The notes beneath the pieces are model-generated. The model made no database searches and was not told the origin of the DNA. It saw only the letters and a list, made by a program, of their open reading frames with translations. A program made the translations under genes and the position numbers. From an uncultured Bryobacterales bacterium (GTDB taxonomy: Bacteria; Acidobacteriota; Terriglobia; Bryobacterales; UBA6623), in contig CATOTH010000003.1 in NCBI GenBank assembly GCA_951813065.1, positions 1 through 64,000 on the forward strand: a stretch of 64,000 bases of DNA, written 5' to 3'. Below, piece by piece: positions 1 through 21,768 of the stretch (within the stretch, counting starts at the first letter, position 1; every line of letters begins with the position of its first letter).

Positions 1-958
1 CCCGGGTCGGCAGGATCCGCATGCGCACCGTGTTGCCGGCCAGACAGGCCCACAGCCAAGACTTCGGCTTCTGTCGCCCGCTCGGCGGCGGGTCCTTGTT
101 GTCGTCCCCGCCCGCGGCCAGCCACTGCACCGGCCAGGAGGTCTCGTCCGCCTGGGCCACCGGCTGCTGCTGTTGGTACTCCCCGATCGCCGCGTCCAGC
201 GGCTCGAACAGCTGCGCGAGCCGCCGCAGCCCCGTCGACAGCGTCGACTGCGGCACGCGCAGCCCCAGTGCCGCCAGATCCCGGGCCACCGCCGCCTGCG
301 GACGGAACAGCGCGTAGACCTGCACCAGACACCAGGCCCACACACTGGTGCCCAACTGGCTGGTGCCCAGCCGGGGAGCCGGCGGGGCGCTCACCGGCCG
401 GGCTGAGCCACAGTCGCAGTCCGGACAATAGCGCTGGCGCACCACCTTGCGTACCAGCGCGTTCCAGGCCAGCTCGTACAGCCAACTGATCTTGTGCCCG
501 CACGCTACGTAGGCGGTGCCGCAGTCCGCACAGCGGCGCTCCTGCTCGGGCACGTCCAGCCACTCGAACACCACCGGCAGGTCGGGCCGCTGCTCGCGCG
601 GCGGGGTCGGCGAACCCGGTTGCCGCCCGCGCTGCCTGCGCGGCCGGACCGCCGGATCCTTGCTCGCGGGCTGCTCCGGCGCGGGCGTTGCGGTCGCTGG
701 CGGGTCGGCCGACCGCTCGGCAGCGACTCCGGCCGTCGCGGACGGGTCGTCCCCGCCCGCTGGCGTGGCCTCGCTCTTGCGTCCGAACAGCGACCGTTGC
801 AGGTTCGCCAACTGGGCTTGCAGCCCAGCTTCCCGTTCCTGCGCAGCCTGCAAGTCGGACTGCGCAGCGTCGAGTGCGCGTTGGAGTTGCTCACAGCGAG
901 CGCACGCGGGCCGCCCCCCGACTGGCTGTCCTTGCTTGCTGGATTTCGTCCTGCCCAC
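1..958 (-). CDS. IS66-family transposase (TnpC-like), C-terminal end beyond window
   Basis: DDE transposase of an IS66-type element; only the N-terminal 319 codons lie in the window, and the reading frame stays open to the window edge. Translating the minus strand from a GTG at 958 gives a basic leader, a leucine-rich coiled coil (CEQLQRALDAAQ), the sequence RSLFGRKSE, a proline-rich linker, a zinc-finger block (CADCGTAY then YCPDCDC) and the start of the catalytic domain. That domain begins with a QADETSW motif near residue 270, the expected position of the first catalytic Asp. An in-frame stop lies just upstream of the GTG, so the start is bounded. No tnpA/tnpB accessory genes are visible upstream (960-1220). 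The IS ends could not be placed. Assignment rests on recognised motifs only. Confidence 0.85.
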   Translation of the reverse strand, partial: MGRTKSSKQGQPVGGRPACARCEQLQRALDAAQSDLQAAQEREAGLQAQLANLQRSLFGRKSEATPAGGDDPSATAGVAAERSADPPATATPAPEQPASKDPAVRPRRQRGRQPGSPTPPREQRPDLPVVFEWLDVPEQERRCADCGTAYVACGHKISWLYELAWNALVRKVVRQRYCPDCDCGSARPVSAPPAPRLGTSQLGTSVWAWCLVQVYALFRPQAAVARDLAALGLRVPQSTLSTGLRRLAQLFEPLDAAIGEYQQQQPVAQADETSWPVQWLAAGGDDNKDPPPSGRQKPKSWLWACLAGNTVRMRILPTR

Positions 959-1219: not shown

Positions 1220-1417
1220 ATGCTTACGCGCAAGGTGACGGTGCGTGCGACCGTGGGGGCCCGCGAGCGCCAGCGCTGGGACGAGCTGATGGGCGCCCAT
1301 CACTACCTGCCCTTTCGTACCCTCGTGGGGCGCAGCATGCGACACGTCGCGGTGCTGGGGGAGCGCTGGCTCGCACTGGTTGGCTGGCAAGCGGGCGCGT
1401 TCAAGCTGCGGCCCACG
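1220..1417 (+). pseudogene. DruA-like (DUF4338) fragment, N-terminal part only
   Basis: About 65 codons matching the N-terminus of the DUF4338 domain of the large transposase at 19819-21663. Shared landmarks include RWDELMGAHHYL (RWNELMRQHHYL in the other copy), RHVAVLGERWLALVGW and AGAFK. Similarity stops near 1413. The open frame runs on to 1504, but the tail is unrelated and appears to be sequence of the adjoining IS1380-type element. It is therefore a remnant cut by that insertion; no remaining part is seen on the far side of the IS. DUF4338 is the domain of the Druantia anti-phage protein DruA, but no Druantia partner genes are present. Confidence 0.75.
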
Positions 1418-19599: not shown

Positions 19600-19609
19600 G
19601 TCCCTCTGA
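19600..19609 (+). repeat. Target-site duplication (left) of ISAs1-type element
   Basis: GTCCCTCTGA, repeated exactly at 21759-21768 on the other side of the element. Ten bases, within the range reported for ISAs1-family insertions. Confidence 0.85.
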
Positions 19610-21758
19610 CAGGCAAATTCAAAGTTCGGTACGGGGATCGGGTTAGGCGCGTAGGCAAGGCATTCTGAGTCGCGCAGAAAGGCGACATTTGCCCGATCAC
19701 GGGATGGCTGGGCCAGAAAGCAGAAACACGGTCTCCACACGCTCGCATTGAGGCGCAGCGGTGGTGGGCTCCACAACGGGGGTGGGGCTGAGAGTCGGAC
19801 GAATCGGGCTGGGGGGAGTTAGCTGAGCAGGAGGGCGACGGCCCCGTCCGGGTCCAGCGACAGTTGGCTCATGCGACGCTGGATGTTCTTCGTCTCCAGC
19901 AGCCGCAGGATCGAGATCGCGAGATTCGAAACTGCCGCCATCAAACGCGGCAGCGGGCCCTTGCGGATGCGGCATTTGTCCTCGCCGACGGCCACGTCCC
20001 GCACGTAGTGGACCCGATTCTCGATGCCCCAGTGACTGCGGTTCAAATGCAGCAACTGCTGCGGTGTCACCTGCTCCGGCCCCAAGCTGGTCACCAAGTA
20101 GACGGTCTCGGGCTGGCGCTGCTTGCCGGTCTTCTTGTAGGTCACCTCCCGCCGTACCTGCGCGACGAGACGGACACCGGGAAAGTGCACGTACGGGACC
20201 GCGGGGTCGAGTTCGTCCGAGACCCGGATCGAGCGGGTTTCGATCCGTCCGTGATCGCCATCGGTGGTCGTGTACGCCGGCATGCAGTCCCAGTGAAAGC
20301 CATCGCGCACCTCCTCGAGCAGGGTGGGCTGGTTGTCTTTCACCGTCAGGGCAAAGTTGAGCTGGAGTGCCAGCAGCTTCTCCACCGTGGGGCGCTGGGT
20401 GTGCAGCGCATCCGCCGTCATACAGATCCCGGTGCCGGCGAACTGCTCGACCAACTGGCGCAGCGCCGCCCCTTCGGCATCGTCCTTCTGGCCCGTGAAG
20501 CCGAGTTGGCCGACCACCGTGCCGGAGTGGATCTCCAGCGCCGACAGCTGTTGCTGGGGGGCCTTGTCGCGGGGCTGGCCAGCCGCGTCCAAGTCCCGGT
20601 CATAGGACCCGCGCAGCACCTTCCCATCGATCGCAATCGCCTGTAGCGGCGCCTCGGAATCGCCGCTGTCCGCTGCCTCGCCCTCGGCGCTATCTTCCTC
20701 CTCATCAAAGACTTGCTCGGCTGTCCAGGCTGCCAACAGACGCTCCACCTCGGCGGCGTCAATGCGCTTGAGAATGTAGTGCCAGCTACTGATGCCGGGC
20801 GCCTCGTAGCGCCCCGTCTGGGGGCGCCGGCGGGAGCCGATCGCCGCCAGGGTCGCCTGGCTCAGGGCCCGGCCGAAGTCGCACAGTTCGGTCAGGTTCT
20901 GCTGGCCGGCCAGGCGCGCGGCGATCAGGATCGTCAGCGCGGTGCGCAACGGATAGCGCAGGCCCCGCCGCTTGCGGGTTTCGGGAATCTGGTCGAGATA
21001 GGCGAACAGGGACCGCCATTGGGAGGGTTGCAGCATGATACAGGGTCGATGGGGTTGCCAGTGGGGATGCGGCTGGGTCGCCGCGAGCTGCTGCCGCGCG
21101 TTGCGCCGCAGCGGGTAGACGAACACGCGCTTGGGCACGCCGTGGGAGTGATAGCCGATCGCGCCGCCACGGACCCGGCCGAACCCTTGTGTGCTGCCGA
21201 CCTCGATCCAGTTGGCGGCGCGATAGCACGTGCCCTCAAAGTGGCTGGGATCAACGAACGTTTCCGCGAGCAACAAGGGAGCCGCGTGCAGGCGCAGCCA
21301 CTCGCGGGGCAGTTGGCGCAGGCTGAGGCCGAGCACGCGGGAGGCGAGATGAGGGCAGGAGCCCGCCTCGCATAACAGCAGGAAGCGGGACTGATTGGCG
21401 ACCAGGAAGAGCCGCTGGCGGCGCTGCAAGGAGGTCCAGCCGATCCAGCGGTCGCGGGCGGCACAGTGCAGGGCGGCGGCATGCCAGCCGATCAAGGCGA
21501 GCCACTGATCGCCGAGCACGGCGACCTGCCGCAGGCGCTTGCCACAGAAGTTGCGGAACCCGAGATAGTGGTGCTGGCGCATCAGCTCGTTCCAGCGCGG
21601 CTCCTCGTCGGGCCGCACGGTCCGGACCTGCACTTCTCGCAAGGGAATCTCGTTCGGGATCACTCTGCGAGTTATCGCATAACCCAGGCGTGTTTGTCCA
21701 GCCTTCCGCCTTAGTCCTTTGTCATTCAGCCATTGCTACCGAACATTGAAAAGCCCTG
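19610..21758 (-). mobile_element. Complete ISAs1-type insertion sequence carrying a DruA-like domain
   Basis: Terminal inverted repeats: CAGGCAAATTCAAAGTTCGG at the left (to 19631) and, on the minus strand from 21758, CAGGGCTTTTCAATGTTCGG; 17 of 22 positions match. A 10-bp direct repeat, GTCCCTCTGA, flanks both ends (19600-19609 and 21759-21768). At 2,149 bp it is longer than ordinary ISAs1 elements because the transposase has an extra N-terminal domain. The 209 bp between the left end and the gene stop hold no gene. The intact ends and duplication suggest a recent insertion between a DUF1501 gene and kdgK. Confidence 0.85.
19819..21663 (-). CDS. ISAs1-family transposase with N-terminal DruA-like (DUF4338) domain
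   Basis: 614 residues in two parts. Residues 8-200 match DUF4338, the domain of the Druantia protein DruA: RWNELMRQHHYLGF, VLGDQWLALIGW, NQSRFLLL, GTCYRAANWIEVGSTQGFGR and a KRVFVYPLRR end. Residues 215-614 are an ISAs1 transposase: a DDE_Tnp_1-associated region (FAYLDQIPETRKRRGLRYPL) then catalytic Asp346 (IAIDGKVLRGS), Asp418 (TADALHTQ) and Glu548 (HWGIENRVHYVRDV). All three acidic residues are present, so it looks active. No frameshift separates the parts. The same DUF4338 N-terminus occurs as a remnant at 1220-1417. The role of the DruA-like part in transposition is not known to me. Confidence 0.9.
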   Translation of the reverse strand: MIPNEIPLREVQVRTVRPDEEPRWNELMRQHHYLGFRNFCGKRLRQVAVLGDQWLALIGWHAAALHCAARDRWIGWTSLQRRQRLFLVANQSRFLLLCEAGSCPHLASRVLGLSLRQLPREWLRLHAAPLLLAETFVDPSHFEGTCYRAANWIEVGSTQGFGRVRGGAIGYHSHGVPKRVFVYPLRRNARQQLAATQPHPHWQPHRPCIMLQPSQWRSLFAYLDQIPETRKRRGLRYPLRTALTILIAARLAGQQNLTELCDFGRALSQATLAAIGSRRRPQTGRYEAPGISSWHYILKRIDAAEVERLLAAWTAEQVFDEEEDSAEGEAADSGDSEAPLQAIAIDGKVLRGSYDRDLDAAGQPRDKAPQQQLSALEIHSGTVVGQLGFTGQKDDAEGAALRQLVEQFAGTGICMTADALHTQRPTVEKLLALQLNFALTVKDNQPTLLEEVRDGFHWDCMPAYTTTDGDHGRIETRSIRVSDELDPAVPYVHFPGVRLVAQVRREVTYKKTGKQRQPETVYLVTSLGPEQVTPQQLLHLNRSHWGIENRVHYVRDVAVGEDKCRIRKGPLPRLMAAVSNLAISILRLLETKNIQRRMSQLSLDPDGAVALLLS

Positions 21759-21768
21759 GTCCCTCTGA
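21759..21768 (+). repeat. Target-site duplication (right) of ISAs1-type element
   Basis: GTCCCTCTGA, identical to 19600-19609. Confidence 0.85.

Follow-up and report, generated by a model that had tools for sequence, protein, structure and literature searches.

The DruA domain (PF14236/DUF4338) occurs both in the Druantia defense system and in an insertion sequence within the 64,000-nucleotide stretch of uncultured Bryobacterales DNA analyzed here (the window), where it is joined to a transposase. Is the domain in this element a displaced defense component or a working part of the transposon, and what would it do there? An initial annotation, made from the sequence alone, proposed that DruA-like domains act in DNA handling by transposons and that their use in defense may derive from them. 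No report of a DruA-transposase link was found in the searchable literature, and the DUF4338 passages located there make no such link; the recurring association of a Mom-like domain with many transposases is apparently undescribed so far. One published survey, in the passages found, read PF14236/DUF4338 as Druantia (PMC7251935).

An Intact ISAs1-Family Element Encodes a DruA-Transposase Fusion

The element (Table 1) has a DUF1501 gene on one side and a PfkB kinase gene on the other. Its termini form imperfect 22-bp inverted repeats, a pairing for which shuffles of the window gave an expectation of 0 matches by chance. Both inverted ends and the flanking 10-bp duplication had been placed exactly to the base in the initial annotation, as had the single unbroken frame joining DUF4338 to a complete DDE domain. 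The Pfam DruA model matches residues 2–164 of the encoded protein with 88.5 bits (curated cut-off 27), and NCBIfam model NF033564 identifies the same protein as an ISAs1 transposase with 158.9 bits (cut-off 70). Asp346, Asp418, and Glu548 are invariant in an alignment of ten intact fusions and are read from the sequence as the DDE triad, and the predicted full-length structure joins the DruA domain to a Tn5-like catalytic half.

Table 1. Features of the DruA-ISAs1 element in the window.
Feature	Position	Strand	Basis
Complete DruA-ISAs1 insertion sequence, 2149 bp	19610–21758	-	Ends, duplication, eight full copies
Target-site duplication, left copy, GTCCCTCTGA	19600–19609	.	
Target-site duplication, right copy, GTCCCTCTGA	21759–21768	.	
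Terminal inverted repeat downstream of gene, CAGGCAAATTCAAAGTTCGGTA (from 19610)	19610–19631	+	
Terminal inverted repeat upstream of gene, CAGGGCTTTTCAATGTTCGGTA (from 21758, reverse strand)	21737–21758	-	
Fused DruA-transposase gene, 614 aa, GTG start at 21663, stop at 19819	19819–21663	-	Frame, Pfam, NCBIfam
DruA domain, residues 1–200, predicted GNAT fold, Mom-like	21064–21663	-	Pfam, predicted model, PDB fold match
DDE_Tnp_1_assoc domain, residues 221–314	20722–21003	-	Pfam
DDE catalytic domain (DDE_Tnp_1), residues 341–569	19957–20643	-	Pfam; invariant D346, D418, E548; model matches Tn5 transposase

ISAs1 elements are recognized by CAGGG-type inverted ends and an 8–10-bp duplication, and the window element has ends and a duplication length of this kind. 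It is thus an intact ISAs1-family insertion sequence and, by itself, an ordinary one, sharing with the family its transposase homology, DDE residues, ends, and 10-bp duplication. Unlike canonical ISAs1 elements, however, it carries an additional N-terminal DruA domain of ∼200 residues; canonical ISAs1 matches on plasmids align with its protein only from residue ∼195–220 onward.

Copies of the Element and Its Relatives in the Source Genome

The source genome contains eight full copies of the element that are 97–100% identical, plus one partial copy at 95%. The open frame is kept in all eight full copies, each of which is bordered by a different 10-bp duplication (GTCCCTCTGA, GGCTTCGGCC, CTGTCAAGCG, GGCAGGGCGC, ACCCCGGAAC, GCGGAACTCC, CCCAATGAGC, and GGGGAGCGAG). 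The near-identity of these eight copies, each with its own duplication, speaks for recent activity of the window element.

In all, 32 DruA matches are spread over several mobile elements of this genome. Two further DruA-ISAs1 subfamilies are present, L050/L051, with CAGGG-type ends and 10-bp duplications, and L045, together with three DruA-Tn5-like subfamilies (L047, L042, and L049), each of which keeps a Tnp_DNA_bind domain and whose copies are bordered by 8-bp duplications. An IS66 element carries a separate 307-aa DruA gene beside tnpC and is bordered by 8-bp duplications (TTTCGTTG, AGTCCGTC, and GTTCGAGA). In this IS66-type element (L039, 495–4012; also L040 and L041), druA lies downstream of tnpC and the terminal inverted repeats are unusually long (∼440 bp, 90% identical).

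Two further traces of such elements lie in the window itself. A DruA-ISAs1 gene remnant at 1229–1402 (plus strand) shows 57–60% amino-acid identity over ∼60 DruA residues, and a truncated IS66 tnpC at 2–958 (minus strand; 319 aa), within which the contig begins, is 100% identical to that of L039 and belongs to the tnpC type that carries its own druA gene.

DruA Recurs with Many DDE Transposase Families

A genome-wide DruA scan of other species yielded at least 582 confirmed relatives, from which 80 loci were kept. Those of the 80 that hold an intact DruA-ISAs1 fusion come from Acidobacteriota, Alphaproteobacteria, Pseudomonadales, and other groups. One DruA-ISAs1 fusion, with 42% identity, is found on Thiodictyon plasmids, and a Paracoccaceae MAG holds three identical DruA-ISAs1 copies with CAGGG-type ends and 10-bp duplications, along with multi-copy DruA-Tn5 fusions. 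The ends of the window element recur with every copy in its own genome, and L050/L051 and the Paracoccaceae copies are independent DruA-ISAs1 elements with ends of the CAGGG type. Ends that fail to recur with other copies, which the initial annotation named as a contrary outcome, are thus not what is seen.

DruA is also fused to Tn5/IS4-like transposases (L042, L047, L049, L077, L147, L180, L186, and L204), to another DDE_Tnp_1 transposase (L076/L178), and to a DDE_5 transposase (L148). As a separate gene it adjoins IS66 tnpC (∼40 loci), DUF772-type transposases (10 loci), Tn5-like transposases (L116 and L201), a DDE_5 transposase (L072), and other DDE_Tnp_1 transposases (L075/L177, L078, and L167). 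Across many bacterial phyla, then, DruA accompanies transposases of at least six DDE families, either fused to them or as a neighboring gene, which sustains the part of the initial proposal that places DruA-like domains in transposons. The outcome held out there as contrary, that the two domains would be separate genes in relatives and the fusion a one-off, is seen in its first half only: separate-gene versions do exist, with other transposase families, and the full-length fusion recurs across phyla, so that a one-off fusion is rejected. Several DruA proteins have long extra N-terminal regions of more than 200 aa (L068/L070/L179, L202, and L223).

The gene order tnpB-druA-tnpC, with all three genes on the same strand, is seen at ∼17 IS66 loci, among them L080, L081, L082, L084, L090, L137, L141, L142, L150, L152, L160, L165, L166, L169, and L259. 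Like tnpB, druA is here a small non-DDE gene within an insertion-sequence operon, but it encodes a GNAT-fold protein and is present besides tnpB.

Selection by similarity to the window was avoided in two pattern-free genome samples, in which genes were found with the Pfam model only. In these samples, and with the same models, a DDE transposase is fused or adjacent to 30 of 39 transposon-type DruA genes versus 0 of 9 Druantia-type genes (Fisher p = 3e-5). The remaining nine of the 39 have no recognized transposase adjacent, several of them lying at contig edges or beside a transposase fragment below threshold.

The DruA-bearing fusions retain the transposase's own N-terminal domain, either DDE_Tnp_1_assoc or Tnp_DNA_bind. 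As these DNA-binding domains are kept, DruA is an addition and is unlikely to be a replacement end-binding domain.

Some DruA-ISAs1 genes are split. In gammaproteobacterial elements, CAA AAA AAG is a conserved candidate programmed -1 frameshift at one homologous DDE site (L205, L214, L219, L208, L216, and L121/L220; three genomes, several copies). A second ISAs1 split, a candidate +1, falls at a T/C-rich run (e.g., CCC CCC TGA) directly past the motif FTVKDNQPT (L093, L099, L059/L061, L102, L103, and L118). In split DruA-ISAs1 genes, the first frame always holds DruA.

DruA Is Conserved and Has Travelled with the Transposase

Across ten intact ISAs1 fusions, mean pairwise identity is higher in the DruA domain (56%) than in the DDE domain (44%) or the linker (36%). 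Among the in-genome copies, pN/pS is 0.28 in the DruA part and 0.16 elsewhere in the protein, few changes underlying both values. The DUF4338 part is thus kept under selection, as the initial annotation had suggested might be checked. Distances in the DruA and DDE parts are correlated (rho = 0.82; 0 of 5000 permutations), which argues that the two halves have travelled together. When a tree is built from DruA, almost all of the ISAs1 fusions group together (support 94–96), as do all of the Tn5 fusions (support 93), whereas a minimum of eight changes is required to explain the IS66 association. DruA was thus recruited repeatedly, with the ISAs1 fusion coming from one or two origins.

These data bear on whether the DruA part joined the frame by chance or is a passenger in decay, a reading that had nothing in its favor beyond the caution of the initial annotation. 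At least 34 fusions recur, nearly all in one clade, and the DruA half is under purifying selection; the recurrence already refutes this explanation, and we regard it as improbable in the extreme.

The Window Element Does Not Belong to Druantia

An insertion sequence might alternatively have captured a true Druantia defense gene, with which the window protein has its Pfam family in common. The window protein nevertheless scores only 12.3 bits (E = 0.016) with the PADLOC DruA model, which gives 316–582 bits for the four Druantia-type proteins tested and no more than 17 for any transposon form tested. PADLOC matched none of the five ORFs flanking the element, so that no DruE helicase or partner gene is present among them. 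Given the low score and the lack of flanking defense genes, membership of the element in Druantia is rejected, and capture from Druantia, already contradicted by these results and by the separate deep lineage of the Druantia proteins, is highly improbable.

Druantia-type DruA was found at nine loci and is homologous to transposon-type DruA (profile-profile E = 5e-11), with which it has the PF14236/DUF4338 family and the predicted fold core in common. It differs from the window DruA in that its proteins are ∼400 aa long with no transposase alongside at any of the nine loci, in that glycine aligns at the Ser108 position, and in that it forms a lineage of its own, set off by a very long branch (4.39 changes per site). 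The tree is unrooted and, with a branch of this length, the direction of change between Druantia and transposon DruA cannot be read from it. The proposed derivation of the defense use from transposons is thus not borne out: the Druantia proteins stand apart in lineage, branch length, PADLOC score, and the glycine at Ser108. Among the nine loci, a full type I-like gene layout is seen for L172 only. At L171 (4714–5874) and L173 (4721–5980), a Druantia-type druA is followed by ORFs of ∼400–445 and 600–680 aa with no DruE-sized ORF, an arrangement that may represent a partial system or a variant not yet described.

The DruA Domain Is Predicted to Resemble Phage Mu Mom

The structural model of the DruA domain has a mean pLDDT of 90.2. 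Of 350,542 PDB chains searched, the one whose fold this model matches best belongs to phage Mu Mom (8bv8; E = 5e-8, TM = 0.60), with AAC(6')-Ib and other GNATs next, and a phage Mom ranks second in a BFVD fold search. The DruA domain is therefore predicted to be a GNAT fold related to Mom. When the DruA profile was compared with the sequences of solved structures, no meaningful match was returned, only the fold search being effective; IS66-linked DruA matches the PHROGs entry “Mom-like DNA modification protein” (E = 2.6e-5), and hhalign of DruA with Mom alone is weak (E = 0.028), with a Mom alignment low in diversity. Several phage proteins in BFVD that are annotated as homing endonucleases or endonuclease-like share the DruA/Mom GNAT fold, which is another tie between this fold and DNA-cutting proteins.

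In the hhalign alignment, DruA Ser108 pairs with Mom Ser124, the active-site serine changed in a structure titled “inactive mutant S124A,” and the other pairs are His32-Tyr33/His58-Tyr59, Tyr147/Tyr159, and Asn151/Asn163. Arg70, Arg93, Glu134, and Gly144 are kept in all 55 pattern-free DruA sequences, Ser108 in 54, and His32 in 53; the Mom-matching tyrosine is sometimes lost in Tn5-type fusions (Tyr147 to Leu). Conservation of residues 144–152 was discounted in the 80-sequence set, where the search pattern GT[CS]Y[RK]A[AS]NW had selected for them. The usual glycine-rich acyl-CoA loop is absent, as read from the alignments, from both DruA and Mom, so that use of acyl-CoA by DruA is not assured. 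Like DruA, Mom has H-Y, S-R, G..Y...N, and I/V-G motifs and is encoded by a transposing element; unlike DruA, it has no transposase fusion, and the two are ∼16% identical. Mom-type enzymes are defined by modification of adenine in DNA, and DruA is likened to them from the alignment and the predicted fold. Placement of DUF4338 in the GNAT superfamily has been made earlier, for a domain fused to DndF (PMC10853773); the assignment agrees with ours, although the passages found there treat that domain as a defense co-effector and do not mention transposases.

A GNAT-fold domain need not be an enzyme, and DruA could instead be a non-catalytic DNA-binding domain that adds recognition of ends or target. 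Its recurrent N-terminal position would fit such a role, as would the frameshift subgroup, whose first frame alone would yield a protein of DruA plus DDE_Tnp_1_assoc, a layout like that of the repressors that bind the ends of IS1 and IS3. Pure DNA binding would not, however, need the near-invariant polar, pocket-type residues His32, Arg70, Arg93, Ser108, and Glu134, and the usual end-binding domains are still in place; we consider this reading rather unlikely.

A Proposed Role for DruA in Transposition

The results establish the element, its copies, the recurring association of DruA with transposases, the constraint on its sequence, and its predicted fold. Taken together, we consider it probable that in this intact, recently active ISAs1 element the Mom-related GNAT domain of the cut-and-join transposase is an accessory to transposition, most likely one that modifies bases. 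We infer that DruA has a role in transposition, for which support is good, and, more weakly, that it is catalytic with DNA as its substrate. In the fusions DruA would be made in cis, and in other element families it would come from the operon that encodes the transposase; its recruitment to the element DNA would fall to the DNA-binding domains that the transposase itself carries. Once there, DruA would act on DNA inside the transposition complex, the likeliest reaction being a Mom-like modification of a base in the target, in the new copy, or at the ends of the element. The retained DNA-binding domains, the cis or operon linkage, and the enzyme-like pocket shared with Mom together suggest this site of action. 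Many transposases of the ISAs1, IS4, and IS66 types function with no DruA, so that the domain is not essential to the chemistry of transposition.

The likeness to Mom also admits a role outside the transposition reaction, in which DruA would be a self-protection (anti-restriction) module that modifies element DNA, as Mom does for Mu, and so shields it from host restriction or other defenses. The Mom-like predicted fold and the shared serine fit such a module, and the known role of Mom is to keep restriction from acting on the DNA of the phage (PMC6483171). A local role in the reaction is nevertheless suggested by the covalent joining of DruA to transposases of several families and by the position of its gene between tnpB and tnpC, and anti-restriction would pay most in phages, yet DruA is nearly absent there (4 matches in 2.9 million viral contigs); we judge this explanation unlikely.

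More broadly, and tentatively, a Mom-like GNAT may have been recruited repeatedly by unrelated DDE transposases as a DNA-modifying factor, with PF14236 being mainly a transposon family. If this is true, transposition by insertion sequences would include the chemical marking of a base, whether at the ends, in the new copy, or at the target, and the DruA of Druantia would have diverged from, or alongside, the transposon family. An enzyme-like relative of a known DNA-modifying protein is a recurring partner of many transposases, and where PF14236/DUF4338 is taken as a sign of Druantia, transposons will often be mislabeled as “incomplete” defense systems. DruA thus appears to assist DNA transposition in general, and phage defense does not appear to be its main role.
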